Part shown: one piece after another, positions 16,807 through 23,280 of the stretch
How positions within the stretch are numbered: the first letter of the stretch is position 1
Layout: each line of letters begins with the position of its first letter
Made by a program: the position numbers and the translations under genes
Notes under the pieces: model-generated
Seen by the model: the letters and a program-made list of their open reading frames with translations, nothing else
The model's database searches: none
What the model was told of the DNA's origin: nothing
Origin: an uncultured Actinomycetes bacterium
GTDB lineage: Bacteria; Actinomycetota; Coriobacteriia; Coriobacteriales; Atopobiaceae
Length of the DNA stretch: 50,174 bases
Assembly (NCBI GenBank): GCA_900313905.1
Contig: OMTG01000056.1
Location: forward strand, 1 to 50,174
Direction of reading: 5' to 3'

Positions 16807-19566
16807 CTACTTGGCGATGGTCTTTGCACCACCGTTGGACTCGATCTTTGCCTGTGCAGCAGCAAGGCGTGCGATAGGCACACGATACGGCGAGCAGGAG
16901 ACATAGTCGAGGCCGAGGTCATAGTACATGTGGATGGACTCAGGATCGCCACCGGTCTCGCCGCAGACGCCGCAGACGATGTCGGGGTTGCCCTTGTGGC
17001 CACCCTTGACACCCATCTCGACGAGCTTTGCGACGCCCGGATCGAGCGTTGCGAACGGGTTGGTCTTGACAATCTTCTTCTCGAGATAGAGCGGCATGAA
17101 TGCGGACTCGACGTCGTCGCGGCTGAAGCCGAGGCAGGTCTGGGTCAGGTCGTTCGTGCCGAAGGAGAAGAAGTCTGCGTGATGAGCGATGTCCTCGCTC
17201 ATGATGGCAGCACGCGGGAGCTCAATCATGGTGCCGACGGGGATGTTCAGCTCGACGCCGTACTCATCGGCGACCTTCTTGACATTCTCCTCGACGATGG
17301 CACGGACCTGCTCGATCTCAGCCTCGAAGGCCACGAGCGGGATCATGATCTCCGGCTTCGGGTCGAAGCCCTGCTTGATGAGCTCGGCAGCAGCAGAGGC
17401 GATTGCCTTGACCTGCATGACGTTGAGCTCAGGATAGACGAGACCGAGGCGGCAGCCACGAAGGCCGAGCATCGGGTTGGCCTCCTGGAAGGAGTCCAGC
17501 TTTGCCATGAGGGCACGCTTCTCGGTGCAGTCCTTGCCAGCAGCCTCCTCCTTGGCGATCTCGACGTCGAGTTCGCGCGGGTTGTCGAGGAACTCGTGCA
17601 GAGGCGGGTCGAGGAGACGGACGATGACGGTCTTGCCGTCCATGGCCTTGAACATGCCAAGGAAGTCGCCCTTCTGGGCAGCGCCAAGCTTCTCGAGGGA
17701 GTCGGCCTTGACGGCGTCGTCCTCTGCGAGGATGAAGTTCTGGATGAGCTGCTTGCGCTCGCCGAGGAACATGTGCTCGGTACGGTCGAGGCCGATGCCC
17801 TCAGCGCCGTTGTCAGCGGAGAGCTGGGCGTCAGCTGGGTTGTCTGCGTTGGCGCGGACACCCATGACACGGCCGCGCTCGGGATCCTTGCGGACCTCGT
17901 CAGCCCAGTCGAGGATGGTCTCGAGGTCGCCGCCGAGCTCAGGACGGATCAGGGGCACTTCGCCCAGGATGACGTCGCCGGTGGTGCCGTCGATGGAGAT
18001 GATGTCGCCCTCGTGGAGCACGACATCAGTGCCGGAGACGCTGACCGTCTTGTTCGGGGCATCGATGTTCAGTGCCTCGACGCCACAGACGCAGGGAGCG
18101 CCCATGCCACGTGCGATGACGGCTGCGTGGGACGTCTTGCCGCCGTGGGAGGTCAGGATGCCCTCGGCTGCCACCATGCCCTTGAGGTCGTCAGGAGTGG
18201 TCTCCCAGCGGACCAGGATGCAGGGCTTCCCAGCCTTTGCGAACTCCTCAGCATCAGCAGAGGAGAACACGACAGCGCCGGTTGCAGCGCCAGGGGAAGC
18301 ATTGAGGCCCTTGGCAAGCACGTCGTACTTGACGGACTTGTCGAACTGCGGGTGCAGGAGCTGGTCGAGCTGCTCAGGAGCGACGCGCATGACGGCCTGC
18401 TCCTTGGTGATGCGGCCCTCGTTGTACATGTCGATGGCGACCTTGAGTGCGGAGAGCGCGGTACGCTTGCCGACACGGGTCTGGAGCATCCAGAGCTTGC
18501 CCTGCTCGATGGTGAACTCGAGGTCCATCATGTCGGCGTAGTGGTCCTCGAGGATCTCGAAGACGTGGTAGAGCTCCTTGCCTGCCTCCTCGAGGCCCGG
18601 GGTCTTCGGGAGGTCGGAGATCGGCTGGGTGTTGCGGATGCCTGCAACGACGTCCTCGCCCTGTGCGTTCACCAGGAAGTCGCCGTAGCGCTCGTTGGTG
18701 CCGTCAGCCGGGTTGCGCGTGAATGCGACGCCGGTGGCGGAGGTGTTGCCCTTGTTGCCGAAGACCATGACCTGGACGTTGACAGCGGTGCCGAGGTCAT
18801 CGGGGATCTTGTTCTGCTTGCGGTACAGGATTGCACGCGGGGTGTTCCAGGAACCAAAGACAGCCTGCTCGGCAAGACGGAGCTGGAGGTACGGATCGGA
18901 CGGGAAGACGGCAGTGCCGCCCTCGGCGACCTCAGGATACTTCTCAGCATCGACGTTGTCGGCGAAGATCTGCTTGAAGGTGGCGACGAGGTCCTTCAGG
19001 TCGTCAGCATCGAGCTCGGTGTCGAGCTTGACGCCCTTCTCTGCCTTCTTGGCGTTGATGGCATCCTCGAAGAGCTGGCCATCTACACCCATGACGACGT
19101 CAGAGAACATCTGGACGAAGCGGCGGTAGGAGTCCCAGGCGAAGCGGGGGTTCTCGGTCTGCTTGATGAGGCCCTGGACAGAGTCATCGTTGAGGCCGAG
19201 GTTCAGGACCGTGTCCATCATGCCCGGCATGGAGAACGGTGCGCCGGAACGGACAGAGACGAGCAGAGGATCGTCCTTGTCGCCGAGCTTCTTGCCCATG
19301 CGCTCCTCGAGATCCTTGCGGTAGACATCGATCTCGTCGAGGACGCCCTCAGGCCACACATTGCCTGCTCCAGAGTAGGCAACGCAGGTCTGGCAGCTGA
19401 TCGTGAATCCCGGAGGAACCGGAAGACCGATGTTTGCCATCTCTGCAAGGTTCGCGCCCTTGCCGCCGGTAATCCACTTGGCTTCGTCGACGGTCTTGCC
19501 TGCGACTTCCGTCACATTGTTGCCGTTGGCGTCCTTGCCGAAGCGATACACATGCTTCTCAGCCAT
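16807..19566 (-). CDS. ppdK: Pyruvate, phosphate dikinase
   Basis: Interconverts pyruvate + ATP + Pi with PEP + AMP + PPi, a key step in anaerobic glycolysis or gluconeogenesis. The 919 residues hold an N-terminal ATP-grasp region (about 1-370), the swivelling phosphohistidine domain with GGKTSHAAVIARG (catalytic His480, regulatory-type Thr478 two residues before it) and the C-terminal PEP/pyruvate barrel with CGVCGETGGDP. The Thr that regulatory proteins phosphorylate in plant PPDK is kept. ATG at 19566 follows AAGGAG. The frame upstream to 19701 is leader, not coding. Confidence 0.98.
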   Translation of the reverse strand: MAEKHVYRFGKDANGNNVTEVAGKTVDEAKWITGGKGANLAEMANIGLPVPPGFTISCQTCVAYSGAGNVWPEGVLDEIDVYRKDLEERMGKKLGDKDDPLLVSVRSGAPFSMPGMMDTVLNLGLNDDSVQGLIKQTENPRFAWDSYRRFVQMFSDVVMGVDGQLFEDAINAKKAEKGVKLDTELDADDLKDLVATFKQIFADNVDAEKYPEVAEGGTAVFPSDPYLQLRLAEQAVFGSWNTPRAILYRKQNKIPDDLGTAVNVQVMVFGNKGNTSATGVAFTRNPADGTNERYGDFLVNAQGEDVVAGIRNTQPISDLPKTPGLEEAGKELYHVFEILEDHYADMMDLEFTIEQGKLWMLQTRVGKRTALSALKVAIDMYNEGRITKEQAVMRVAPEQLDQLLHPQFDKSVKYDVLAKGLNASPGAATGAVVFSSADAEEFAKAGKPCILVRWETTPDDLKGMVAAEGILTSHGGKTSHAAVIARGMGAPCVCGVEALNIDAPNKTVSVSGTDVVLHEGDIISIDGTTGDVILGEVPLIRPELGGDLETILDWADEVRKDPERGRVMGVRANADNPADAQLSADNGAEGIGLDRTEHMFLGERKQLIQNFILAEDDAVKADSLEKLGAAQKGDFLGMFKAMDGKTVIVRLLDPPLHEFLDNPRELDVEIAKEEAAGKDCTEKRALMAKLDSFQEANPMLGLRGCRLGLVYPELNVMQVKAIASAAAELIKQGFDPKPEIMIPLVAFEAEIEQVRAIVEENVKKVADEYGVELNIPVGTMIELPRAAIMSEDIAHHADFFSFGTNDLTQTCLGFSRDDVESAFMPLYLEKKIVKTNPFATLDPGVAKLVEMGVKGGHKGNPDIVCGVCGETGGDPESIHMYYDLGLDYVSCSPYRVPIARLAAAQAKIESNGGAKTIAK

Positions 19567-19769: not shown

Positions 19770-20150
19770 CTACTGACGGTTGCGCAGTGCGCCGACCTCA
19801 TCAGAAGGCTCAACGCCGGTCAGGCCCGAAAGCACGGTGATTGCCGGCCCCATCAGGTCGATGGAGGGGATGCCACGCTTCTCGCAGGCCTCGCGCACCT
19901 CACGGCGCAGCGCAGAGGTTCCGATTGTGTGGAAGACGGCCATGGGACGATCCTTCTCGGTCTGGTCGTCCAGGAACTTCTCTACCTCTTCGATCGTGCG
20001 CACCCTTGTGAGCCTGATGACATCCACGAGATCCTTGGCGAACTGTGCCTCAGCGGCATCGACGACTGCAGAAGCCGTAGTGCCAAGAGAGTCAGAGATA
20101 ACAAGGACTTTGGCCTTTGGGGGCTCATAATCGAGCTCTAGCGTATCCAT
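19770..20150 (-). CDS. Short PPDK regulatory protein-like (DUF299 N-terminal half only)
   Basis: The 126 residues resemble the N-terminal half of the pyruvate phosphate dikinase/PEP synthase regulatory protein (PSRP, DUF299, about 270 residues): VLVISDSLGTTASAVVDAA at about 15-33 and RPMAVFHTIG at 68-77. The family's C-terminal P-loop kinase/phosphorylase half (Walker-A-like motif ending GKTP) is absent; the frame closes at TAG and no continuation exists in any frame before ppdK. AGGAGG nine bases before the ATG and an upstream TATAAT (20177-20182) suggest an expressed gene. Position beside ppdK supports a link to it. It could be a sensor or partner domain, or a decayed PSRP. Confidence 0.75.
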   Translation of the reverse strand: MDTLELDYEPPKAKVLVISDSLGTTASAVVDAAEAQFAKDLVDVIRLTRVRTIEEVEKFLDDQTEKDRPMAVFHTIGTSALRREVREACEKRGIPSIDLMGPAITVLSGLTGVEPSDEVGALRNRQ

Positions 20151-20182
20151 GCCCGACTTCCTCCTTCGTTTCGAACATTATA
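20151..20182 (-). promoter_or_regulatory. Promoter of the short PSRP-like gene
   Basis: TATAAT on the minus strand (20177-20182) lies 27 bp upstream of the start codon, after the glyS terminator. The -35 is weak. AGGAGG follows before the ATG. Confidence 0.5.
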
Positions 20183-20208
20183 GAGCACATCTAGCGTACG
20201 GAAAGAAT

Positions 20209-20235
20209 CCGGCGGCGCAAGCGACGCGCCGCCGG
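20209..20235 (-). terminator. Terminator after glyS
   Basis: Perfect 10-bp GC-rich arms CCGGCGGCGC and GCGCCGCCGG with a 7-nt loop, followed on the minus strand by ATTCTTTCC. It lies 7 bp beyond the glyS stop. Confidence 0.8.
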
Positions 20236-20241
20236 AATGCG

Positions 20242-22338
20242 CTATTTCTTACGTGAAAGGCAGCTCACGTCAGCGACATCCGCAAATACATTGGAGAATT
20301 TGTTGAGGAGCCGCAGGTGGTTGTCGCGGACCTTCTCGTCCGGGTCCATGACGAGGACATCGTCGAAGAAGGTGTCGATCGGCTCGCGGAGCTGGGCGAG
20401 CGCCTCGAGGGCATGTCCATAGTCCTTGGCATCGAGCGCGGATGCGACCTCGGCCTTGCCCTCCTTGCAGGCAGCGAGAAGCGCCTGCTCGGGTGCGGTG
20501 AGGATAGACTCGTCCACCTCGTCGCCGAGCTTGGGGTCTGCCAGATGCGCGGCACGTGCATGGGCGATGGCAAGATCCTCGAAGAGCTCTGGCTGCTCCT
20601 TGCGCGCATCATCGAGCGCATGGGCGCGCTTGAGGAACTCGTCTGGATCGATGACGCCCACAGCGGAGACAGCCTCGATGGTGTCAGGAGAGACGCCCTC
20701 GTCCTTTGCAATCGCATTGAGCCTGCCGGCGAAGAACTGGGCGACAGATTGCGCAACCTTGTCCTTGTCGAAGGAGAGGCCCTGCTCTGCGTAGGCATCG
20801 AGCGAAGCCGAGATGAGCGCATGCAGCGACACCTGCGGCAGCGTCCGCAGCATCGCGATGATGCCGATGGCGCTCCTGCGCTGCGCGAAGGGATCGGACG
20901 ATCCTGTCGGCGGCTCGTCAATCGCGAACATGCCGCAGACGGTGTCGAGCTTGTCTGCGATGGCGACACAGATGCCGACAATCCCCGAGGGGATCTCGTC
21001 GCCTGCGAAGCGCGGACGGTACTGCTCGCGGATGGCCTCTGCCACCTCATCATCCTCGCCGGAGGCGGTGGCATAGTAGCCGCCCATGACGCCCTGCTGG
21101 CTCGTGAACTCGACGACAGCCTGGGTCACGAGGTCTGCCTTCGCGAGATAGGCGGCACGCTCCGCCATGGCAGCATGCTTCTCGTCGGCTCCCGCCTCAT
21201 GGGCGACAGCAGATGCGACCTTGACCATGCGCTTCGTCTTCTGGAGCACGGTCCCCAGCTTCTCCTGGAAGACGACCTTGTCGAGCTTCGCGACATAGTA
21301 CTCGAGCGGATGGCGCAGGTCCTCCTCGTAGAAGAACTTTGCATCGTCGAGGCGGGCGCGCACGACACGCTCATTGCCGTCGATGACGGTGGCAGAGACC
21401 TTCGGGTCCGCATTGGAGACGACGACGAACTCGCGGGTGAGGTTGCCGTCCTTGTCGTAGATCGGGAAGTAGCGCTGGTTCGTCAGCATGGACTCGCAGA
21501 TGATCTCGTGCGGGACCTTGAGGAACTCCTCGTCGAACTTGCCGACGAGCACGGTCGGCCACTCGCAGAGGTTCACCACCTCGTCGAAGACCTTCTTCGG
21601 CATGTCCACATGGGCACCGCCGCGCTCCTGCTCGACCTTGGCGACGCCTTCGAGGATGACCTCGCGGCGGCGCTTCTCGCCCAGCACGCCATGCTCCTCG
21701 AGCACGCGCACATACTGGGCGGGATCTTTCACCTCATGCTCGCCCGGCCCCAGGACACGGTGTCCGCGCGTCTTGTTGCCGCTCGTGACGCCAGCGTAGG
21801 TGACAGGCACGACCTCCTCTCCGAGCAGAGCCACGATCCAGCGGATCGGGCGCACGAAGGTCTCGTGCTCTGAGCCCCAGCGCTGGCTGCGGTAGTTCGG
21901 CCACTCGAGTCCGGCGATCGTCGCATGGGAGAGCTCGGAGAGGATGCCCTCTGCCGGACGTGCGGCAACCGTCTTCTCGGCCCACACATAGGTCTTCCCG
22001 TCCTTGTCCTCTCGCACGGCAAGCTCTTCGGCTGCGAGGCCGAACTTGCGGGCGAAGCCTTGGGCTGCCTTCGTGGGCTTGCCGTCCTTGTCGAAGGCTA
22101 TCTGGGCATTCGGGCCACGCTTGACCTCGTGGACCTCTTCGGTCGAGGTCGCGACATCCTTGACCATGACCGTGAGGCGCCTCGGCGTCGAGAAGGTAGA
22201 GATCTCGCCGTGGGAGAGGCCCTCCTGGTCGAGCCCCTTCTTCACAAGGCCGAGAAGCTGCTTCTGGGCGTTCATGAGCGGAGCGCTCGGCATCTCCTCG
22301 GTGCCGATCTCCAGCAGGAAATCCTTCGTCGTGGCCAT
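20242..22338 (-). CDS. glyS: Glycyl-tRNA synthetase beta subunit
   Basis: Beta chain of the alpha2-beta2 glycyl-tRNA synthetase, binding and positioning tRNA-Gly. The N-terminus LLEIGTEEMPSAPL is the family signature. The body contains the HD-like region and the C-terminal anticodon-binding segment; 698 residues is normal. The ATG at 22338 is one base after the glyQ stop, so translation is coupled. The longer open frame to 22476 overlaps glyQ and is not coding. Confidence 0.98.
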   Translation of the reverse strand: MATTKDFLLEIGTEEMPSAPLMNAQKQLLGLVKKGLDQEGLSHGEISTFSTPRRLTVMVKDVATSTEEVHEVKRGPNAQIAFDKDGKPTKAAQGFARKFGLAAEELAVREDKDGKTYVWAEKTVAARPAEGILSELSHATIAGLEWPNYRSQRWGSEHETFVRPIRWIVALLGEEVVPVTYAGVTSGNKTRGHRVLGPGEHEVKDPAQYVRVLEEHGVLGEKRRREVILEGVAKVEQERGGAHVDMPKKVFDEVVNLCEWPTVLVGKFDEEFLKVPHEIICESMLTNQRYFPIYDKDGNLTREFVVVSNADPKVSATVIDGNERVVRARLDDAKFFYEEDLRHPLEYYVAKLDKVVFQEKLGTVLQKTKRMVKVASAVAHEAGADEKHAAMAERAAYLAKADLVTQAVVEFTSQQGVMGGYYATASGEDDEVAEAIREQYRPRFAGDEIPSGIVGICVAIADKLDTVCGMFAIDEPPTGSSDPFAQRRSAIGIIAMLRTLPQVSLHALISASLDAYAEQGLSFDKDKVAQSVAQFFAGRLNAIAKDEGVSPDTIEAVSAVGVIDPDEFLKRAHALDDARKEQPELFEDLAIAHARAAHLADPKLGDEVDESILTAPEQALLAACKEGKAEVASALDAKDYGHALEALAQLREPIDTFFDDVLVMDPDEKVRDNHLRLLNKFSNVFADVADVSCLSRKK

Positions 22339-22339
22339 C

Positions 22340-23251
22340 CTATGCCACCTCCCCTTCCTTGGCGGCAGCAGGCTTCTTGCTTGCCACATGTTCGAGATAG
22401 GACTCGCAGCAGAGCTTTGCGAGCGTGCGGACGCGCAGGATGTAGTTCGCGCGCTCGGTGGCGGAGATGGCGCCACGGGAATCGAGCAGGTTGAAGGAGT
22501 GGCTGCACTTCATGACGCAGTCATAGGCAGGCAGTGGCAGCTCGCGGTCGAGGCACGAATGGCACTCTGCCTCGTAGTCATCGAACTTCTGCCTCATCAT
22601 CTCGACGTTCGCGACCTCGAAGTTGTAGGCAGAGAATTCGACCTCGTTCTCGTGGAACACATCGCCGTATGTCATCGGCGTGCCGTCGGGCAGATAGCTC
22701 CAGACGATGTCGTAGACCGAGTTCTTGCCCTGGGCATACATCGCGATGCGCTCGAGGCCGTAGGTGATCTCCACGGGCACCGGATCGCACTCGATGCCGC
22801 CGACCTGCTGGAAGTAGGTGTACTGGGTGACCTCCATGCCATCCATCCAGACTTCCCAGCCGAGGCCCCAGGCACCGAGCGTCGGGCTCTCCCAGTCATC
22901 CTCGACGAAGCGCACGTCGTGCTCTGCCGGATCGAGGCCGATGGCAGCAAGGGAGCCGAGGTAGAGGTCCTGGGAGTCCTCAGGGCAGGGCTTCAGCACG
23001 ACCTGGAACTGGTAGTAGTGCTGCATGCGGTTCGGGTTGTCGCCGTAGCGGCCATCGGCCGGGCGGCGGCACGGCTGCGGGTAGCAGGTCCTCCACGCAT
23101 CGGGGCCGAGCGAGCGGAGCAGCGTCGCCGTATGGAAGGTGCCTGCACCTACCTCGGAATCGTACGGCTGCATGACGGTGCAGCCCTTGTCTGCCCAATA
23201 ATGCTCGAGTGCCAAGATCATGTCCTGGAATGTGAGCGCACTGGTGCCCAT
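22340..23251 (-). CDS. glyQ: Glycyl-tRNA synthetase alpha subunit
   Basis: Catalytic class II subunit activating glycine. Family features: [19 protein letters not shown] near the N-terminus, [34 protein letters not shown] around residues 60-80 and [12 protein letters not shown]. Length is 303. I start at the ATG at 23251 after GGAGAG. It follows lepB by 34 bp, across a GC-rich hairpin. Confidence 0.98.
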
Positions 23252-23280
23252 GAGACTCTCTCCTTCGTGTTCTCCATGAT

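Follow-up and report, generated by a model that had tools for sequence, protein, structure and literature searches.

In the PSRP/PDRP family (DUF299, PF03618), full-length members switch off PEP synthase or PPDK by phosphorylating an active-site Thr in an ADP-dependent reaction, and activity is restored with Pi (PMC2817694, PMC8100219). According to a review, maize PDRP consists of an N-terminal domain (NTD) and a C-terminal domain (CTD) of common fold, both with P-loops; catalysis is placed in the CTD, an allosteric role has been proposed for the NTD, and the NTD P-loop is phosphate-binding (PMC9138534). In maize PDRP2, the kinase is active and the phosphorylase activity nearly nil (PMC6019023). 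A PDRP homologue was reviewed as occurring in all PPDK-containing bacteria (PMC8100219).

The window (the whole stretch of 50,174 nucleotides that was analyzed) carries an intact 126-aa ORF on the minus strand between glyS and ppdK (Table 1). The product resembles PSRP/PDRP in its N-terminal domain, its ppdK-adjacent locus, and its SDxxGxT loop, but lacks the entire C-terminal P-loop catalytic domain, and for this reason the known PSRP reaction is not expected of it. Its predicted fold superposes on the NTD of maize PDRP1 (PDB 5d0n/5d1f), which is however part of a two-domain homodimeric enzyme and shares about 20% identity with the short protein. Maize PDRP2 is likewise a family member of reduced function, but both domains and the kinase activity are kept there. 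A literature search, with subscription papers largely outside its reach, returned no description of a half-size form.

Table 1. Positions of the features discussed, in the window or in the named locus.
Feature	Sequence	Position	Strand	Remarks
Short PSRP gene	window	19770..20150	-	126 aa, ATG to TAG; PF03618 positions 1-108
SDxxGxT loop	window	20073..20096	-	codons 19-26, SDSLGTTA; aligned to maize SDGTGWTA
Shine-Dalgarno GGAGG	window	20160..20164	-	9 nt before ATG of the short gene
TATAAT-like hexamer	window	20177..20182	-	upstream of the short gene
Terminator-like hairpin	window	20208..20236	-	directly behind glyS; 12 pairs, 10 G-C; strong
ppdK	window	16807..19566	-	pyruvate phosphate dikinase, 919 aa
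GGKTSHAAV motif of PPDK	window	18118..18144	-	Thr 18133-18135; catalytic His 18127-18129
glyS	window	20242..22338	-	conserved upstream neighbour
glyQ	window	22340-23257		conserved upstream neighbour, with glyS
Activase-adjacent short paralog	L052	6979-7359	-	
Further activase-adjacent paralogs	L066, L067, L070, L084, L086, L088, L104, L106, L129, L130			
deoC-like-adjacent paralog	L040	6464-6895	+	
deoC-like-adjacent paralog	L047	7006-7443	-	
deoC-like-adjacent paralog	L049	6916-7341	+	
deoC-like-adjacent paralog	L056	7044-7481	-	

An earlier note, made from the letters of the sequence, had described the product as the N-terminal half of PSRP with a good Shine-Dalgarno sequence and its own TATAAT. 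In the HMM search, PF03618 (PSRP, DUF299) matched only over its first 108 of 256 positions (E 7e-19, 68.9 bits; cut-off 23.5 bits), and NCBIfam PRK05339 matched over positions 5-114 of 270 with a score of 66 (full-length cut-off, 225). The Shine-Dalgarno sequence was confirmed, and the hexamer is present as described but has no -35 partner at promoter consensus. Because a strong terminator-like hairpin lies behind glyS, a separate transcript for the short gene is plausible. The nearest solved sequence was the maize PPDK regulatory protein 5d0n. No second PF03618 match was found in the gene's own genome (181 contigs, 100% complete), and a contig scan with the 126-aa protein as query returned a single close relative.

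That the kinase/phosphorylase half is missing and leaves no remnant, as noted earlier, was borne out by a profile search of the 700 nt past the stop in three frames, in the window and in the relatives. The kinase-half profile had no match anywhere in the gene's own genome, and the C-terminal P-loop domain (GxSRTxKTP) is thus absent from the ORF, the downstream DNA, and the genome. Within Atopobiaceae, strong matches to this profile were confined to the 15 genomes having the full-length protein, and the remaining ones were weak (E 0.1-0.65), which is the level of chance.

An AlphaFold model of the 126-aa protein as a monomer, built from 64 family sequences, had a pLDDT of 89.3 and a pTM of 0.81. 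The best hit in the fold search was the N-terminal domain of 5d0n (residues 135-259, Z 14.6, 2.4 A over 115 residues), with the runner-up chain well behind at Z 8.3. The lower matches, EIIA-Man-like and others, were weak and tied, and were set aside. By sequence and predicted fold together, the protein was identified as the PSRP/PDRP N-terminal domain; a model unlike that domain had been named beforehand as the outcome that would speak against the assignment. The 5d0n entry is titled 'maize PDRP bound with AMP'; the AMP is said to sit in the N-terminal domain, and the structure paper reportedly found this domain to be without activity.

Across 52 syntenic short rows, the invariant residues were S19, D20, G23, T25, V29, A33, Q36, A71-T75, R82, R86, D98, G101, P102, L110, and P115. 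Those also invariant in 19 unlinked relatives were D20, G23, T25, A33, Q36, F73-T75, R82, D98, G101, and P115. The S, D, G, and T of the SDxxGxT loop do not vary among the syntenic short rows, and the loop sits where the NTD has its P-loop-like loop. Position 74 is His in the short rows and Tyr in most outgroup NTDs.

The survey took in Atopobiaceae, the other members of its order, and evenly sampled genomes of the phylum. PF03618 matched in 132 of 140 Atopobiaceae genomes, in 117 over the first ~108 positions only (a few of these matches being fragments at contig ends) and in 15 over the full length. By table count, 10 of the 32 genera have the full-length and about 22 the short form; G019 is the sole genome carrying both. 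Among the matches listed outside the family, DUF299 was full-length; the one exception, a fragment below threshold, comes from a genome with a full-length copy as well. We regard a conserved stand-alone N-terminal half as established in Atopobiaceae: most genera of this family of the gut and rumen have lost the catalytic half and retained the other. A recent truncation, for which all relatives should be full-length, does not agree with the relatives being mostly short.

The order trmD-lepB-glyQ-glyS-[short or full]-ppdK was seen in most of 80 loci and in both types, so the short gene occupies the place of full-length PSRP. The syntenic short proteins are 125-135 aa long, each with its own start and stop, and the gap to ppdK (~124-356 nt) is similar to that after full-length genes. 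Both genes are retained in G017 and G024-G026, although the short gene lies on a different contig from ppdK or ~75 kb away from it. In two loci, L035 (G006) and L082 (G133), ppdK is in pieces through a stop or frame change, possibly by assembly error; G133 additionally contains unread bases.

In a tree of five neighbouring genes, short-form organisms did not form one clade (AU p 1e-5; p 0.016 without the g9 rows). The domain's own tree, of ~106 columns, did not reject one clade (p 0.48); 49 of the 52 syntenic short rows clustered (86/80), the g9 rows fell among full-length ones, and the position of L064 was unresolved. The short form may have arisen by repeated truncation or spread by horizontal exchange, which these trees do not separate. 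Degenerate kinase halves were found in four full-length proteins (L093, L094, L095, and L101), and in L093 and L094 the P-loop reads GLSGSAKTP and ppdK lies elsewhere in the genome. When positions invariant in 19 intact full-length proteins were taken as the reference, L095 had 10 of 33 changed in the kinase half against 0 of 12 in the N-half (Fisher p 0.03), and L101 had 8 of 33 against 0 of 12 (p 0.06); this contrast was not seen in L093. In L095 and L101, the catalytic half looks as if it were eroding ahead of its loss. The PSRP loci of L093-L095 are without ppdK.

For the window gene and its nearest relative, dN was 0.055 and dS 0.95 (ratio 0.058), and the ratio to the next relative was 0.13. 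Most other close within-genus pairs gave 0.02 to 0.34; distant pairs were saturated and were excluded. Judged from these ratios, which the earlier note had named as a check, the short gene is under purifying selection.

All 19 unlinked short copies fall into a single clade (100/99). Eleven of them carry SDMTG(E/T)TV and stand directly behind a glycyl-radical-enzyme activase (TIGR02494), with a PFL2-type enzyme (TIGR01774) encoded divergently and, in all but one, a transaldolase-type gene beyond it. Four others (L040, L047, L049, and L056) are directly behind a deoC-like aldolase (TIGR00126), with a GntR-type regulator encoded divergently at three of the four loci, and in L044 deoC is near the short copy. 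The copies in L083, L108, and L128 have no neighbour of any of these kinds. Long ORFs beside the deoC-adjacent relatives (e.g. L040 5424-6467) were considered as a new partner and rejected as shadow frames of the deoC-like gene. The structure of an activase-adjacent relative, predicted without an alignment, had a pLDDT of 60 and was left aside because of its low quality. Going by gene neighbourhood, the PSRP N-terminal domain is a recurring module in carbon-metabolism surroundings, and since stand-alone domains lie near glycyl-radical-enzyme and deoC-like aldolase genes, recruitment of the same module to other carbon-metabolism enzymes is suggested.

The conserved Thr of PPDK was present two residues before the catalytic His (GGKTSHAAV), as noted earlier. 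It was dropped as evidence for regulation, since the motif is identical in every relative with a short or a full regulator alike. In good Atopobiaceae genomes, the N-terminal domain occurred in 100 of 101 and ppdK in 101 of 101; with ppdK in all of them, the family offers no contrast for a dependence of the short gene on it. Of 19 selected sister-family genomes lacking PSRP, 17 lacked PPDK as well (G142-G145, G167, G175-G177, and others). PPDK with no PSRP match was seen in G172 and G141 of that family. The mirror tree of the short protein against PPDK gave a partial r of -0.01 after phylogeny was removed, and 162 of 300 permutations were as high. In L062, L063, and L076, PPDK is divergent along its whole length and the short protein ordinary, suggesting that the native PPDK may have been replaced by a divergent one. 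Identity of these three to the window PPDK was 70-79%, against 85-93% in relatives such as L073 and L074. A second PPDK_N protein (about 877 aa) is encoded in the same genome as the window, on contig C94 (L146 2589-5222, minus strand), and was considered as a target; in the part read, inspection by eye showed neither a PEP-utilising mobile domain nor a SHAAV motif.

Our preferred reading, held tentatively and at a little under an even chance, is that the short protein serves PPDK as a regulatory subunit, with no catalysis of its own and probably with a bound nucleotide. The P-loop kinase/phosphorylase domain was lost from PSRP within Atopobiaceae, the leftover N-terminal (regulatory) domain has been kept by selection since that loss, and the short protein would be nucleotide-responsive and act on PPDK without catalysis. 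As expected of a PSRP/PDRP member, the gene lies beside ppdK or tracks PPDK/PEP synthase. The earlier note had suggested that this could be a new regulator type. A conserved stand-alone N-terminal module is supported; that it is a new type of regulator acting on PPDK is the part that we infer, with PPDK as the putative target from ancestry, locus, and joint occurrence, and a nucleotide as the putative ligand. PPDK is put forward as the target no more firmly in view of the missing co-divergence, the uninformative motif, the non-PPDK neighbours of the relatives, and the ordinary short protein that accompanies the divergent PPDK in L062, L063, and L076. A broader reading is rather doubtful: stand-alone PSRP N-terminal domains would be regulatory subunits of PPDK, of the PFL2-type enzyme or its activase, and of the deoC-like aldolase, ligand-dependent binding would have replaced covalent control of PPDK, and the module would have been recruited to other enzymes.

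It is somewhat unlikely, and less so than any other alternative, that the protein is a stand-alone nucleotide- or metabolite-binding module with a partner other than PPDK, inherited gene order keeping it next to ppdK and its relatives serving other enzymes. Retention of the short gene where it is unlinked from ppdK, the mirror tree without a signal for PPDK, and the related copies behind the PFL2-type activase and the deoC-like gene are consistent with this. Against it, the targets of full-length members are PPDK or PEP synthase (PMC2817694, PMC8100219), presence and absence of PSRP and PPDK are mostly shared in the sister family, and the gene order is retained in most loci.

An enzymatic activity of the short protein's own, e.g. 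with the SDxxGxT loop and the invariant His74, Arg82, and Asp98 as the site of phosphotransfer or phosphate removal, is improbable: the maize NTD is said to be inactive, His74 is replaced by Tyr in most outgroup NTDs, and the loop does not match the catalytic P-loop pattern, GxSRTxKTP. In favour of an activity are the many invariant positions of the short rows, common to paralogs and full-length rows, and the fold that the NTD has in common with the catalytic CTD (PMC9138534). A split system, with the short domain working beside a separate kinase/phosphorylase encoded elsewhere, is no more probable. Losing half of a bifunctional enzyme invites a partner, the Thr is kept on PPDK, and an unrelated kinase could still fill the role; however, the invariance of the Thr motif everywhere makes it uninformative, and the earlier suggestion of a kinase elsewhere fails for a DUF299 kinase half, as the profile is strong only in the 15 full-length genomes and unmatched in the gene's own. 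Decay into a functionless PSRP remnant, the alternative raised in the earlier note, can be dismissed despite the lost catalytic half and the in situ decay seen in the kinase halves of L093-L095 and L101, given the PSRP N-terminal fold, dN/dS well below 1 in close pairs, intact frames in the syntenic loci read, Shine-Dalgarno sequences retained in the loci inspected, and persistence across about 22 genera.

PSRP/PDRP are known as bifunctional kinase/phosphorylases, and Atopobiaceae mostly keep the non-catalytic half only. Automatic annotation based on PF03618 would mislabel these short proteins as kinases. The short form is a natural separation of the two PSRP domains, through which the role of the NTD may be approached with the 126-aa protein and PPDK. 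In Atopobiaceae, a regulator seems to have been remade with the enzyme left out.
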